Assembly: GCF_002802915.1 (NCBI RefSeq)
Contig: NZ_PEBJ01000001.1
Coordinates: 434,001 to 498,000, forward strand
Length of the DNA: 64,000 nucleotides
Source of the DNA: Bifidobacterium felsineum
Lineage (GTDB): Bacteria; Actinomycetota; Actinomycetes; Actinomycetales; Bifidobacteriaceae
Direction of reading: 5' to 3'
Shown: piece by piece, positions 19,011-44,329 of the stretch
Position numbering within the stretch: the first letter of the stretch is position 1
Layout: every line of letters starts with the position of its first letter
The notes under the pieces: model-generated
Told to the model about the DNA's origin: nothing
What the model saw: only the letters and a program-made list of their open reading frames with translations
Databases searched by the model: none
Program-made: the position numbers and the translations under genes

Positions 19011-19176
19011 GTCCATAATTCGGGTAAACGACCCACGTCTCCCGATTTTTGGACACTGAGGAGTAATGGGCGTCCAAAAATCGGGTCAGTGCGGCATTGT
19101 TCCGGAATTATGGATGTTGAGTTGGTGTCAATGTCCATAATTCCGACAGTTAGGTCTATTTTTCGTAAAATTGGAC
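19011..19176. repeat. Alternating inverted-repeat array with exact 61-bp unit (convergent rsmD/trmD junction)
   Basis: One 14-nt word recurs in alternating orientation: GTCCATAATTCGGG at 19011, CCCGATTTTTGGAC at 19041, GTCCAAAAATCGGG at 19072, CCGGAATTATGGAT at 19102, GTCCATAATTCCGA at 19133 and a decayed TCGTAAAATTGGAC at 19163. Same-orientation copies are exactly 61 bp apart, and neighbours alternate at 30 and 31 bp. The words differ by substitution, not length. The array fills the gap between the stop codons of two convergent genes and could form three successive hairpins or a row of protein sites. Confidence 0.85.
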
Positions 19177-20149: not shown

Positions 20150-20248
20150 GAATCCGACCACTGACTGTAGGTTTTTGAACGAAAAACGTTAAAAATCCTA
20201 CAGTCAGTGTTAGAAATCCGACAGTCAACGTTGGAAAACCTACAGTTG
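20150..20248. repeat. 21-bp direct repeats with one inverted copy upstream of trmD / U32 gene
   Basis: AAAAATCCTACAGTCAGTG (20191), AGAAATCCGACAGTCAACG (20212) and GAAAACCTACAGTTG (20234) are direct copies with the TCC/ACC register at 20196, 20217 and 20238, exactly 21 bp apart. A partial copy (AATCCGACCACTG) has its TCC at 20153, 43 bp earlier. An inverted copy, CACTGACTGTAGGTTTTT (20159-20176), pairs with the first direct copy in a stem of about 18 bp. The array lies between the divergent trmD and U32 genes, close to both starts. Confidence 0.75.
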
Positions 20249-27967: not shown

Positions 27968-29098
27968 ATGGCAGCACTTCGTGGTCCGGATAGTTCCGAG
28001 GACGAACGTCGTTTGGGGGAGCAGGCCGTCTTTCCTGAGACGGTCGATGTCAATATCCGTCAGCTCGATCCGATCCCAGCGCCTCGAGCGTTCCTCAAAG
28101 AGCAGCCTCTTACTGACGAGATGAGTAATCTCGTGCTGCATTCGCGCCAGGAGATTCGTGACGTGCTCAATGGTCGCGACGATCGTCTGCTTGTCATCGT
28201 GGGTCCATGTTCCATCCACGATCCCAAGGCCGCGCATGAGTATGCCGAGAAACTGGCTGCCGTCAAGCGTGAGCTGGAAGATCGTCTCGTCATCGTGATG
28301 CGCGTCTACTTCGAAAAGCCTCGTACCACCATTGGCTGGAAGGGCCTGATTAACGATCCTGATCTGGATGGCCGTTTCAATATTCGCAAGGGTATGTGGC
28401 TGGCCCGCAAGGTGCTGACCGACGTGCTGAGCCTTGGTCTTCCCGCCGCCACCGAATGGCTCGACCCCATCACCCCGCAGTACATTTGCGATGCGATCAG
28501 CTGGGGTGCCATCGGTGCACGTAATACGGAAAGCCAGGTCCACCGCGAACTGGCCAGCGGCTTGTCCATGCCGGTCGGCTTCAAGAACTCCACCGACGGT
28601 TCCATCAAGGCCGCCGCCGACTCCTGCTACACCGCAGGCTTCGAACATCATTTCCTGTCCATCAACCTGGATGGCCGCGTCATCTCCGCCGAAACCAAGG
28701 GCAATCCGGATTGTCATCTGGTGCTTCGCGGTTCGAGCTCTGGTCCGAACTACGATGCTGAATCGGTGCGTAAGGCTTTGGAAGCGCTGAAGGCGTCCAA
28801 GGCTTCCGGCCCGAGTCAGTACGGTCTGGTCATCGACGCCGCTCACGGCAACTGCGGCAAAAACGAGGTCCGTGAGGCTGAAGTCGTCGAGGAAATCGCA
28901 GCCCGCCTTGCCAAGGGTGAGCCAGGCATCACCGGCGTGATGATGGAAAGCTTCCTTGTGGGTGGCCATCAGAAGCCGGCACCGCTTGACCAGCTGGTCT
29001 ACGGTCAATCCGTCACCGATGCCTGCGTGCCATGGAATCGCACCAACGAGCTGCTGCACACGCTGGCCGACGCCGTCACCGCCCGTCGCGCACTATAA
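27968..29098 (+). CDS. aroG: 3-deoxy-7-phosphoheptulonate (DAHP) synthase, class I
   Basis: A 376-residue enzyme that condenses phosphoenolpyruvate with erythrose 4-phosphate, the entry to the shikimate pathway. Motifs are VIVGPCSIHDPKAAHEYA, VMRVYFEKPRTTIGWKGLIN, AISWGAIGARNTESQVHREL, the metal-binding Cys in GPCSIHD, the ligand His in IDAAHGNCGKN and MMESFLVGGHQ. It matches the short class I (AroF/G/H) type, in which an N-terminal extension carries amino acid feedback control. A second, 410-residue paralog lies 1.7 kb downstream, so the two isozymes probably answer to different aromatic amino acids; which is which cannot be read. Confidence 0.93.
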   Translation: MAALRGPDSSEDERRLGEQAVFPETVDVNIRQLDPIPAPRAFLKEQPLTDEMSNLVLHSRQEIRDVLNGRDDRLLVIVGPCSIHDPKAAHEYAEKLAAVKRELEDRLVIVMRVYFEKPRTTIGWKGLINDPDLDGRFNIRKGMWLARKVLTDVLSLGLPAATEWLDPITPQYICDAISWGAIGARNTESQVHRELASGLSMPVGFKNSTDGSIKAAADSCYTAGFEHHFLSINLDGRVISAETKGNPDCHLVLRGSSSGPNYDAESVRKALEALKASKASGPSQYGLVIDAAHGNCGKNEVREAEVVEEIAARLAKGEPGITGVMMESFLVGGHQKPAPLDQLVYGQSVTDACVPWNRTNELLHTLADAVTARRAL

Positions 29099-29268: not shown

Positions 29269-30222
29269 ATGAAAGAGCACAAAGAAGTCGCCGCTGCGTT
29301 AAGGTCCGCACAATCGGATTATCGTTGTGCTTCAGGTACCAATGATGCATTGCGAAAAGCCATGCGCCGTCGTGCCGCTGCAGGAGATTTGGTTTCACCT
29401 TATCGGAATATGTATGCCGCACGCGATTATTGGAATGCGTTGAATAATGAGCAACAATCATTGCATGTGATTCGAGGATTAGCGTATCGGCATCCATCGT
29501 GGGTCTTTACGGGGCTAAGCGCAGCGTGCTTGTATGGGGTGCAGCATTCGCGTTCTTTGCATGATGGGAAAGTATATGTGGCATCCACGGGCGGGATCGG
29601 TGGTGCTGATGAATCACATCTTGTGCGCGTCTATATGAATCAAATTCCTCAGCGCATGGTGCAGGGCATTCGTCTTGTTTCGCCAGCCCGAATGATACTC
29701 GACTGTGCAGGGTATCCGTTTGTTCATGCGTTGGCCATTATTGATTCGACGTTACGGATGGGATTGACTTCGTGTGAAGAAATTGAAGCATTGTCGCTGC
29801 AAAGCGTTTGTGATGAGCGATCAGTGAAGCGGTTAGTGCGCTATGCGGATGCGGGAAGCGAGAATGGGGGAGAATCGTTGTTCCGCGGCATGCTGATAGA
29901 GCGGAATTATGCCGAGCCGTTGTTACAGGTGGAATTTGGGAACCCGGATAATCCAGCGATGCCTTATCGGGTTGATTTTTGTTGGAAACTTGCGGATGGT
30001 CGCATTATTGTAGCCGAATACGATGGTATGGCGAAGTATGCAGATGCGACTAATAAAAATCGAGCCAGTCTTCAAGCTAAGTTGGATTACGAACGTCGGA
30101 GAGAGCAACATCTCAAAGCGCAAAAGGTAACGGCAATCATCCACGTCTTCTTTGAGGATTTGATGTCTCCGCGGCGCTTTGAGGAAAAGATGAATGAGGC
30201 CGGAGTTCCTAAAATCGTGTGA
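29269..30222 (+). CDS. AbiEi-like antitoxin / DUF559 nuclease-fold hypothetical protein
   Basis: A 317-residue protein. Residues about 20-150 resemble the AbiEi-type winged-helix region: RRAAAGDLVSPYRNMYAARD, SWVFTGLSAACLYG, then SPARMILDCAG. Residues about 225-310 look like a Vsr/DUF559 PD-(D/E)xK fold: YRVDFCWKLADGRIIVAEYD with D, ExD and downstream K/R residues. It has no adjacent toxin (AbiEii) gene. Its DNA is visibly richer in A and T than both neighbours, pointing to transfer. No ribosome site is seen; CATATT is 8 nt before the ATG. Such stand-alone proteins are common in bifidobacterial genomes and their role is unknown. Confidence 0.6.
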   Translation: MKEHKEVAAALRSAQSDYRCASGTNDALRKAMRRRAAAGDLVSPYRNMYAARDYWNALNNEQQSLHVIRGLAYRHPSWVFTGLSAACLYGVQHSRSLHDGKVYVASTGGIGGADESHLVRVYMNQIPQRMVQGIRLVSPARMILDCAGYPFVHALAIIDSTLRMGLTSCEEIEALSLQSVCDERSVKRLVRYADAGSENGGESLFRGMLIERNYAEPLLQVEFGNPDNPAMPYRVDFCWKLADGRIIVAEYDGMAKYADATNKNRASLQAKLDYERRREQHLKAQKVTAIIHVFFEDLMSPRRFEEKMNEAGVPKIV

Positions 30223-30310
30223 ATCGAGGTGTTTCCTCGGTGAAATGGTTCTAGTCAGAGTCATAGCGGTGAATAGAGCTTTTGCCGGTGTATTAAGCGG
30301 TTCAAAATTT

Positions 30311-30644
30311 CGTTCTGAACCCATATTTCGTGAAAAGGAGCCACTGAGCGGCCGTCAGTGGCTCCTTTTTTCGAGATAATTCCTAAGTTCGTGAAAAGAG
30401 GCCACTGACTATTCCTCAGTGGCGTATATTCACGAGCTGTACCTTTTCCTCGAAATAATACGCCACTGAGTCATCGTCAGTGGCTTCTTTTTACGAGGTC
30501 AACGAATATCTCGAAATAATAAGCCGATCGAACGCACTCAGCGGCGTTATTTTTCGGAGAGACTCCATATTTCGTGAAAATACGCCATTGATCAATTGTC
30601 AGCAGCTTCTTTTTTCGGGATAATCCCATATCTCGTGAAAAAGC
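30311..30644. repeat. Tandem palindromic array, exact 61-bp unit, more than five units
   Basis: The unit has the form ATTTCGTGAAAA-nGCCACTGA-loop-TCAGTGGC-TTTTTTCGAGATAA. The TCG of the left arm is at 30328, 30389, 30450, 30511, 30572 and 30633. The CG of the right arm is at 30311, 30372, 30433, 30494, 30555 and 30616. Every step is exactly 61 bp, although units differ by many substitutions. Unit 1 is a near-perfect 25-bp-plus stem ending in a T-run (AAAAGGAGCCACTGA / TCAGTGGCTCCTTTTTT). Units 4 and 5 are the most decayed. The array fills most of the 608-nt space between the AbiEi-like gene and the second DAHP synthase. There is no ORF; 30645-30830 holds the aro promoter region. Confidence 0.92.
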
Positions 30645-30830
30645 ACCGCGAGGGAACTGAAGCGGTCGTTATTGGTTTGGCGCCGATCGTCGGCATCGGT
30701 ATCAGTGTCGGTATTGGTGGCGCTGATGCGTGTAATGCTGTCGATAATAATGTTGCCGAGTCTACGGCTGACACTGTTGCCGCTATGGTTAGGTATCCTT
30801 GGGGTGGATGAATCACAAGGAGTACGAGAC

Positions 30831-32063
30831 ATGCAGCAGCAGCAAGGCGCAGTGCCAGCCGAAAATCCATTGCAGGTTGGCCCGCAGCCGTTGAACACGC
30901 CTGAAGAGCTTCGCGCCATTCGCCAAGCCATGGGCGAAGGCAAGAATCCGTTGATTGCCACGGATGTGCCACGCTGGGAGGATCAGGTTGGTGTCAGCCG
31001 CATCATCAATCGTCGTGTATTGGAACTTGAGCCGCTGCCCACGCCGGCCCAGGTGCTTGCGGAACTGCCGCTGACTCCTCAGGCCCAGGGAATCGTCGCC
31101 TATTCGCGCGATGAGATTCGCGCATGCCTCTACGGGCAGGATGATCGTCTGTTGGTGATTGTGGGCCCCTGCTCGGTTCATGATCCCGCAGCTGCGCTCG
31201 ATTATGCGCACCGCTTGGCCAAGGTGATGAAGGAAACCGAGCGTGAGCTGCTCATTGTGATGCGTGTGTACTTTGAGAAGCCGCGCACCACTGTGGGTTG
31301 GAAGGGCCTGATTAACGACCCGGACATCGACGGCAGCCACCATATCAAGAAAGGCCTGCTGCTTGCCCGAAAGACGTTGCTCGGTGTGCTTGGCGAAGGA
31401 TTGGCTGCCGCCACGGAATTCCTCGAGCCCACGAGCCCACAGTTCATCGCCGATGCAGTGAGCTGGGGTGCCATCGGCGCCCGCAATACGGAGAGCCAGG
31501 TACATCGTCAGCTGGCCAGCGGCTTATCCATGCCGGTGGGATTCAAGAATGCCACTGACGGCTCGGTGAAAGCAGCAGTCAACGGCTGCTTTGCCGCAGC
31601 CCAACAGCACACGTTCTTTGGCATCGACCATTTGGGCCGTGCATGCGCAGTGGAAACGCTCGGCAATCCTGATTGCCATGTGGTGCTGCGCGGCTCGATT
31701 CATGGGCCGAACTATGACGCTCAATCCGTAGCCAAGGCGATGGATACCATTCGCGATGAGATGCCGGCTGATTCCGCGGCCTGCCATGGCCTGATTGTGG
31801 ATTGCTCGCACGGCAACTCCGGCAAGGATGAGCATCGTCAGGCCGAAGTAGTGCGCGATATCGCACGTCGCATCGCGGCGGGGGAGCGTGGAATCACCGG
31901 CATCATGATGGAAAGCTTCATCGAGGGCGGCAATCAGAAGGCCGCGCCGCTCGATCAGTTGGTGTACGGCAAATCCATCACCGATAAGTGCATCAGTTGG
32001 CCGGATACCGAAGCGCTGCTGCATGAGCTCGCCGAAGCCGTGGCCGCACGCCGTTGGAAGTGA
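30831..32063 (+). CDS. aroF: DAHP synthase paralog, class I, with N-terminal extension
   Basis: A 410-residue enzyme from ATG 30831 (AAGGAG 8 nt upstream); the frame is open to 30672 without a ribosome site. Its catalytic body repeats the motifs of the first copy (VIVGPCSVHDPAAALDYA, VSWGAIGARNTESQVHRQL, SHGNSGKDE, MMESFIEGGNQ). It has about 30 additional N-terminal residues (MQQQQGAVPAENPLQVGPQP) and a different regulatory region. The two proteins are recognisable paralogs, probably an old tandem duplication later separated by the insert between them. The symbol marks only the isozyme; its feedback inhibitor is unknown. Confidence 0.9.
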   Translation: MQQQQGAVPAENPLQVGPQPLNTPEELRAIRQAMGEGKNPLIATDVPRWEDQVGVSRIINRRVLELEPLPTPAQVLAELPLTPQAQGIVAYSRDEIRACLYGQDDRLLVIVGPCSVHDPAAALDYAHRLAKVMKETERELLIVMRVYFEKPRTTVGWKGLINDPDIDGSHHIKKGLLLARKTLLGVLGEGLAAATEFLEPTSPQFIADAVSWGAIGARNTESQVHRQLASGLSMPVGFKNATDGSVKAAVNGCFAAAQQHTFFGIDHLGRACAVETLGNPDCHVVLRGSIHGPNYDAQSVAKAMDTIRDEMPADSAACHGLIVDCSHGNSGKDEHRQAEVVRDIARRIAAGERGITGIMMESFIEGGNQKAAPLDQLVYGKSITDKCISWPDTEALLHELAEAVAARRWK

Positions 32064-44217: not shown

Positions 44218-44230
44218 TGCATTCGAAAAT

Positions 44231-44275
44231 CTCACTAAACGTACACTGACGGTTAGTCAGCGTACGTTTAGTGAG
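44231..44275. terminator. Long palindrome ending the hydrolase transcript
   Basis: CTCACTAAACGTACACTGAC (44231-44250) pairs with GTCAGCGTACGTTTAGTGAG (44256-44275) at 19 of 20 positions. A similar palindrome with the same AAACGTAC and ACTGAC words stands at 55.7 kb. Confidence 0.75.
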
Positions 44276-44329
44276 AAAAGGCGTATGGATTGCGACACGC
44301 CGAAGGGTGCATTGTCGTCGGTCATACGT

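Follow-up and report, generated by a model that had tools for sequence, protein, structure and literature searches.

The tandem palindromes between the AbiEi-like gene and a DAHP synthase gene in the window (the whole 64,000-nucleotide stretch of Bifidobacterium felsineum DNA analyzed here) are probably one local copy, amplified in tandem, of a non-autonomous palindromic element of REPIN-like type, which would be served by a protein combining an AbiEi-like region with a DUF559-type nuclease domain rather than by a RAYT transposase. Palindromes of the same fixed geometry form dispersed families in this genome and across the genus, and they are linked to genes of one protein family, with arm and protein divergence correlated.

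Array structure and dispersed copies in the genome

The array spans approximately 30294-30680 and consists of a 21-bp half-site, P (consensus TTCGTGAAAATAAGCCACTGA), which alternates with its inverse. The order is P, a 7-bp loop, inverse P and a 12-bp linker, repeated at an exact pitch of 61 bp, giving five units that are clear and a sixth that has decayed. The features are as follows (no strand assigned).

30294-30314: left-end half-site of the array (inverse arm), in register, with a 12-bp linker ahead of unit 1
30327-30375: hairpin unit 1, 21-bp arm, loop GCGGCCG, 21-bp arm
30388-30436: hairpin unit 2, loop CTATTCC
30449-30497: hairpin unit 3, loop GTCATCG
30510-30558: hairpin unit 4, partly decayed, loop AACGCAC
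30571-30619: hairpin unit 5, partly decayed, loop TCAATTG
30632-30680: unit 6, left arm retained, right arm decayed
30376-30387, 30437-30448, 30498-30509, 30559-30570 and 30620-30631: linkers, all exactly 12 bp

The TCG and CG marks listed in the original prediction were all correctly placed, and every step is 61 bp. Self-identity of the array was 0.58 at a lag of 61 and 0.57 at a lag of 122, against 0.25 at other lags, and in 1000 shuffles identity at any lag did not exceed 0.38. Tandem Repeats Finder, a tool of the kind proposed as a check, did not report the array because the units are only ~60-73% alike. The description of each unit as a palindrome holds for units 1-3, where the core GCCACTGA...TCAGTGGC is perfect and the hairpins are near-perfect; core and hairpin are damaged in units 4-5, and in unit 6 the core is gone and half of the hairpin is lost. 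Similarly, the proposal that length is conserved while sequence drifts was borne out for the fixed length and the free loops, but drift in the arms is limited: within the array's arm family, pairwise identity was 0.71 in the outer arm and 0.84 in the core, compared with 0.25 across the five inner bases of the loop.

The arms of this array form seven further arrays in the genome, typically with three full hairpins and a half unit at either end, and the terminal half-site at 30294-30314 is similar to a sister half-site, TCAGCGGCCCAAAATTTCGAA, in one of the related loci (L022). Spacing in the sister arrays is identical throughout, except for one 11-bp linker gap. The linkers, read by eye, are polar (TTTTTTCGA..TTCGTGAAA or the inverse) and usually occur as two of one polarity followed by two of the other, to which the window array adds two more of the first. 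Other hairpins of this kind in the window are listed below, again with no strand assigned.

19039-19087: second-family hairpin, core TTTTGGACACTGA, partner gene at G000:C11:796141-797091
19100-19148: another second-family hairpin, exactly 61 bp after the preceding one
44229-44277: single hairpin of the same architecture, core CGTACACTGA, 7-nt loop
55683-55731: single hairpin, partly decayed, core CGTACGCT, 7-nt loop

The second family is itself dispersed, with copies at C11:63993/64054, C13:8358, C14:238511/238633, C15:143597/143658 and window positions 19039/19100, in steps of 61 or 122 bp, and its hairpins flank the second paralogue of the AbiEi-like gene. The two single hairpins share CGTACRCT cores and 7-nt loops and possibly represent a third family. 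Separately, window positions 20185-20246 hold a 21-bp tandem repeat of three copies with 78% matches.

Arms, loops and spacing across the genus

A covariance model built from this genome recovered relatives in 6 of 39 genomes (counting the query genome itself), and a broader model recovered them in 51 of the 112 genomes of the genus. Subfamily arms are entirely different (e.g., TTCGCGAATATGTACCACTGA, TTCCCGAATTTCTCTCACTGA, GCGCCATAAACGAGCCGCTGA and TTCCTGAAATTCTGTCGCTGA), with CRCTGA-N7-TCAGYG common to the subfamilies. When loop length was left free in the fetched loci, 54 of 55 palindromes had a 7-bp loop and one had a 5-bp loop; in these loci the 61-bp pitch occurred in 73 close pairs, and any other spacing below 400 bp occurred once only. 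Linkers tend genus-wide toward A-W-N-A-G-G-C-C-W-N-W-T.

Loop sequence, in contrast to the arms, is close to unconstrained. Of the 205 hairpins, 196 had distinct loops and ~90% had a G or C at each end of the loop, and pairwise identity of the inner five loop bases in five subfamilies was at the random level (0.24-0.26, arms 0.70-0.85). Several hairpins in genome G056 have identical 21-bp arms yet different loops and flanks, and loops were random even between hairpins with 42/42 identical arm positions. Simple copying cannot explain these random loops, and either strong selection on the arms or a loop-changing step is needed. However, G056 also carries identical same-loop hairpins (CGCAAGC twice, CTAGCAG twice) at sites with different flanks, and therefore a unit can be copied whole. 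The original prediction offered replication slippage as a source of the array; this could account at most for tandem growth, as with two adjacent identical units in L230 (a tandem duplication), and it leaves the genome-wide dispersal unexplained.

Paired positions in this genome's family showed covariation no better than shuffles, on which ground selection for RNA structure within the family was rejected, and the half-sites therefore seem to be conserved by sequence, each individually. The same result, pairing no better than between shuffled arms, is as expected if each half-site is recognized on its own, and an ordered row of protein sites, one of the roles first suggested for the array, is still plausible. 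From one subfamily to another, the two arms change in concert (149 double-sided changes vs. 52 in shuffles, partly expected since the rows were found with a structured model), as would follow from the replacement of one recognized sequence by another.

Tandem bidirectional terminators or RNA-stabilizing hairpins, amplified by slippage and only incidentally linked to a gene, would fit the strong RNA fold of the array (z of -10.2 on the plus strand and -8.5 on the minus strand) and its terminator-like matches, 9 compared with 2.7 in shuffles. We regard this reading as improbable. Neither fixed loop nor fixed linker lengths would be required of terminators, covariation is absent within the family, and one gene family is linked to the hairpins at P about 1e-35 (below). 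Arrays lie in nearly random gene contexts (39 co-directional, 15 convergent and 12 divergent, about the frequencies expected by chance), with no excess at convergent ends, and the terminator or insulator role initially imagined thus found no support. Searches of the array against Rfam returned nothing at gathering score, the weak microRNA matches, far below gathering scores, being chance matches to a hairpin, and the related loci likewise gave no match at gathering level.

The orthologous intergenic space in G056, between a gene of 78% identity and the DAHP synthase gene, contains one full hairpin and half units, compared with five to six units here. The array has therefore long occupied this place; the anticipated variation in copy number at constant pitch is seen between species. 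Lone hairpins (L059, L236, L237, L238 and others) have ~5 bp of extra, locus-specific complementarity just outside the arms (0.71-0.43 at positions 1-5 vs. ~0.25), as if elements had inserted into palindromes or palindromes had grown outward. Neither a target duplication nor an excision product was observed.

Linkage to an AbiEi-like gene

The candidate partner gene lies directly before the array.

29269-30222, forward strand: 317-aa protein with an AbiEi-like N-terminal region and a C-terminal DUF559-like (PD-(D/E)XK-type) domain

Two different DAHP synthase genes (27968-29098 and 30831-32063) flank it. The first half of the protein matches AbiEi_1 (PF09407, E = 1.1e-5). The C-terminal half aligned to DUF559 with an hhalign probability of 96.8 (P 2.1e-10) in a one-profile comparison, not a database search, and carries an invariant E-(R)VDF-E-x-DG-x-x-KY; the protein gave no Pfam DUF559 match at the curated cut-off. 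Assignment as a nuclease-like domain is thus a prediction from the profile match. None of the solved structures matched the family profile, and a single-sequence AlphaFold model had a pLDDT of 35, too low to be usable.

When the genus was searched with the window DNA, the 3′ end of this gene recurred beside hairpin loci. A protein search identified ~32 members with at least 50% identity in 22 genomes, and hairpins were present in all 22 genomes with a gene of this close clade, compared with 29 of 90 genomes without one (Fisher 1.3e-9); G067 and G024 are examples of genomes with many hairpins and no close-clade gene. A hairpin lies within 700 bp in 25 of the 32 relatives of at least 50% identity, against 2 of 9 more distant ones (p = 0.0037), and with the chance of an adjacent hairpin at ~2% per gene, the observed linkage has a P of about 1e-35. 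A more divergent gene (G112, 40% identity) is itself flanked by hairpins. Hairpin-associated members cluster in the protein tree (four changes vs. 8.8 in shuffles). Every paralogue has its own arm type, with three in G056 and two each in G017, G054, G082 and this genome, and the arm and protein distances are correlated (Mantel r = 0.30, p = 0.0002; by protein part, 0.297 for the N-terminal, 0.172 for the middle and 0.263 for the C-terminal part). The original prediction had named the AbiEi-like neighbor; its role as partner and the dispersed family were missed. In-frame stops break three copies of the gene (G013:C16:238340, L328; G086:C3:204971, L314; G054:C16:80572, L336), of which L314 has also lost its hairpins while L328 and L336 retain theirs.

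It is also conceivable that the palindromes are binding sites only, that is, fixed-spacing operators of an AbiEi-like repressor or architectural protein whose dispersed, immobile copies form a regulon or organize the chromosome. Autoregulation of AbiEi through inverted repeats (PMC3985639), the rigid 7/12 spacing, the conserved arms with random loops and the conservation of half-sites independently of pairing are all in line with this. However, the sites among the 25 linked loci are found more often 3′ (24) than 5′ (16) of the partner gene, with 15 having both, which is unlike an operator; the dispersed copies have no promoter preference, the arrays are species-specific with one to six units, and the copies that share a loop but not their flanks imply copying. 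We therefore consider binding alone unlikely, though less so than the terminator reading.

A nuclease-based defense or addiction device, in which the palindromes would tag self DNA, shield it or help to retain the nuclease gene, could be proposed from the membership of AbiEi in a toxin-antitoxin family, the predicted nuclease-like domain and a PADLOC match. That match is weak (E = 0.0075), dozens of dispersed copies would not be needed, and neither an AbiEii partner nor a modification gene was noted next to the gene in the window, where its neighbors are the two DAHP synthases. This explanation appears to have as small a chance as the terminator reading. Viral contigs yielded no relative of the protein.

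Among 149 genomes of the order, 94 carry related AbiEi-like genes. Outside the genus, matching palindromes were found on both sides of the gene in 7 of 23 loci, a small set, compared with 0 of 62 DAHP synthase controls (Fisher 5e-5; mismatched-pair rate 0.2%), after a two-sided match at L290 was discarded as a run of N. Their arms are unrelated to the genus type, and some loci have a constant loop length with differing loop sequences; in L353 the loop is 12 bp, and its palindrome occurs once more in that genome, again with loop length kept and loop sequence varied. Around a more distantly related gene (L350, in G063), the flanking palindromes have a loop of 3 nt, TGTACCA-NNN-TGGTACA, which suggests other loop lengths in other subfamilies.

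Proposed mechanism and comparison with known systems

In the REPIN-like reading that we favor, the basic unit is a 21-bp arm, a 7-bp loop of free sequence and a 21-bp inverse arm. The adjacent AbiEi-like protein would recognize the arm and would probably use its N-terminal DNA-binding region to do so; the C-terminal DUF559-like nuclease domain may cut the palindrome or an extruded hairpin. Repair or replication would then copy the palindrome into new intergenic sites with the arms held in register, and tandem growth would add whole 61-bp units. One to a few such genes per genome may each maintain their own arm subfamily. A free loop of fixed length would fit a dimer bound to a pair of half-sites, or else a hairpin with an unread tip. 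These roles in binding, cutting and mobilization, and their division between the two domains, are what we infer; the dispersed families, their fixed geometry, the link to the gene, the correlated divergence and the copies sharing a loop but not their flanks are observed.

To our knowledge, RAYT transposases are the one established kind of helper enzyme for REP-like palindromes. We weigh about equally for and against the broader proposal that AbiEi-DUF559 nucleases, each specifically recognizing and propagating its own fixed-loop palindromes with no known transposase, form a new repeat-enzyme class across actinobacteria. No earlier description of such a system was found in the open-access literature. 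If correct, a second, unrelated helper would mean that partnerships of palindrome and enzyme evolved more than once in bacteria, and the very common and unexplained AbiEi-like protein family would gain a candidate role. The 21-bp arm and the protein encoded beside it offer a directly testable pair, and the bacteria that carry them are harmless inhabitants of the gut.

Arrays with short variable segments were also considered. In line with the original prediction, a CRISPR array was rejected on architecture, as there are no near-identical direct repeats; half-sites instead alternate with their inverses, and the variable zones are 7 and 12 bp. Each tandem unit of a TIGR array (TIGR-Tas) contains two short segments that vary in sequence but not in length (PMC12045711), and variable fixed-length segments are common to both systems. 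However, TIGR units are ~36 nt with two different repeats and an adjacent Nop-domain gene, whereas the repeats here are mutual inverses, dispersed and linked to an unrelated gene, and this candidate was likewise rejected on architecture.

Each half of the partner protein also has a known counterpart. AbiEi, the antitoxin of type IV AbiE systems, binds inverted repeats (PMC3985639) and is homologous to the N-terminal region (PF09407). Here, however, a nuclease-like C-terminal domain replaces the antitoxin half, repeats lie on both sides and are dispersed, and no AbiEii-type nucleotidyltransferase toxin is in operon with the window gene, the scanned neighbors being DAHP synthases. DUF559/Vsr-like PD-(D/E)XK nucleases share the motif order E...RVDF...E-x-DG and the profile match, but the domain is here fused to an AbiEi-like region and tied to palindrome families.

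The closest parallel is with REPIN-RAYT systems, in which dispersed intergenic palindromes have conserved ends and a less conserved, length-constrained middle, cluster beside a single-copy gene, differ in repeat type with each gene paralogue, and can form tandem arrays (PMC3116915). All of these traits are also found in the palindromes described here, which are many dispersed, extragenic palindromic doublets whose type is matched to the adjacent gene paralogue, with a different gene family. Y1/HUH transposases (Y1_Tnp, PF01797) were absent from all 24 genomes searched, including this one, while control genomes gave matches, and no conserved GTAG or CGTC tag stood beside the arms at the hairpin foot in 18 aligned flanks. 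A RAYT system was accordingly rejected, and because both the defining transposase and the tag are absent, the element is not a member of REPIN-RAYT. The pattern nevertheless matches step by step with an unrelated enzyme, the partner here being AbiEi plus DUF559-like, with an arm of 21 bp, a loop of 7 bp and a pitch of 61 bp.
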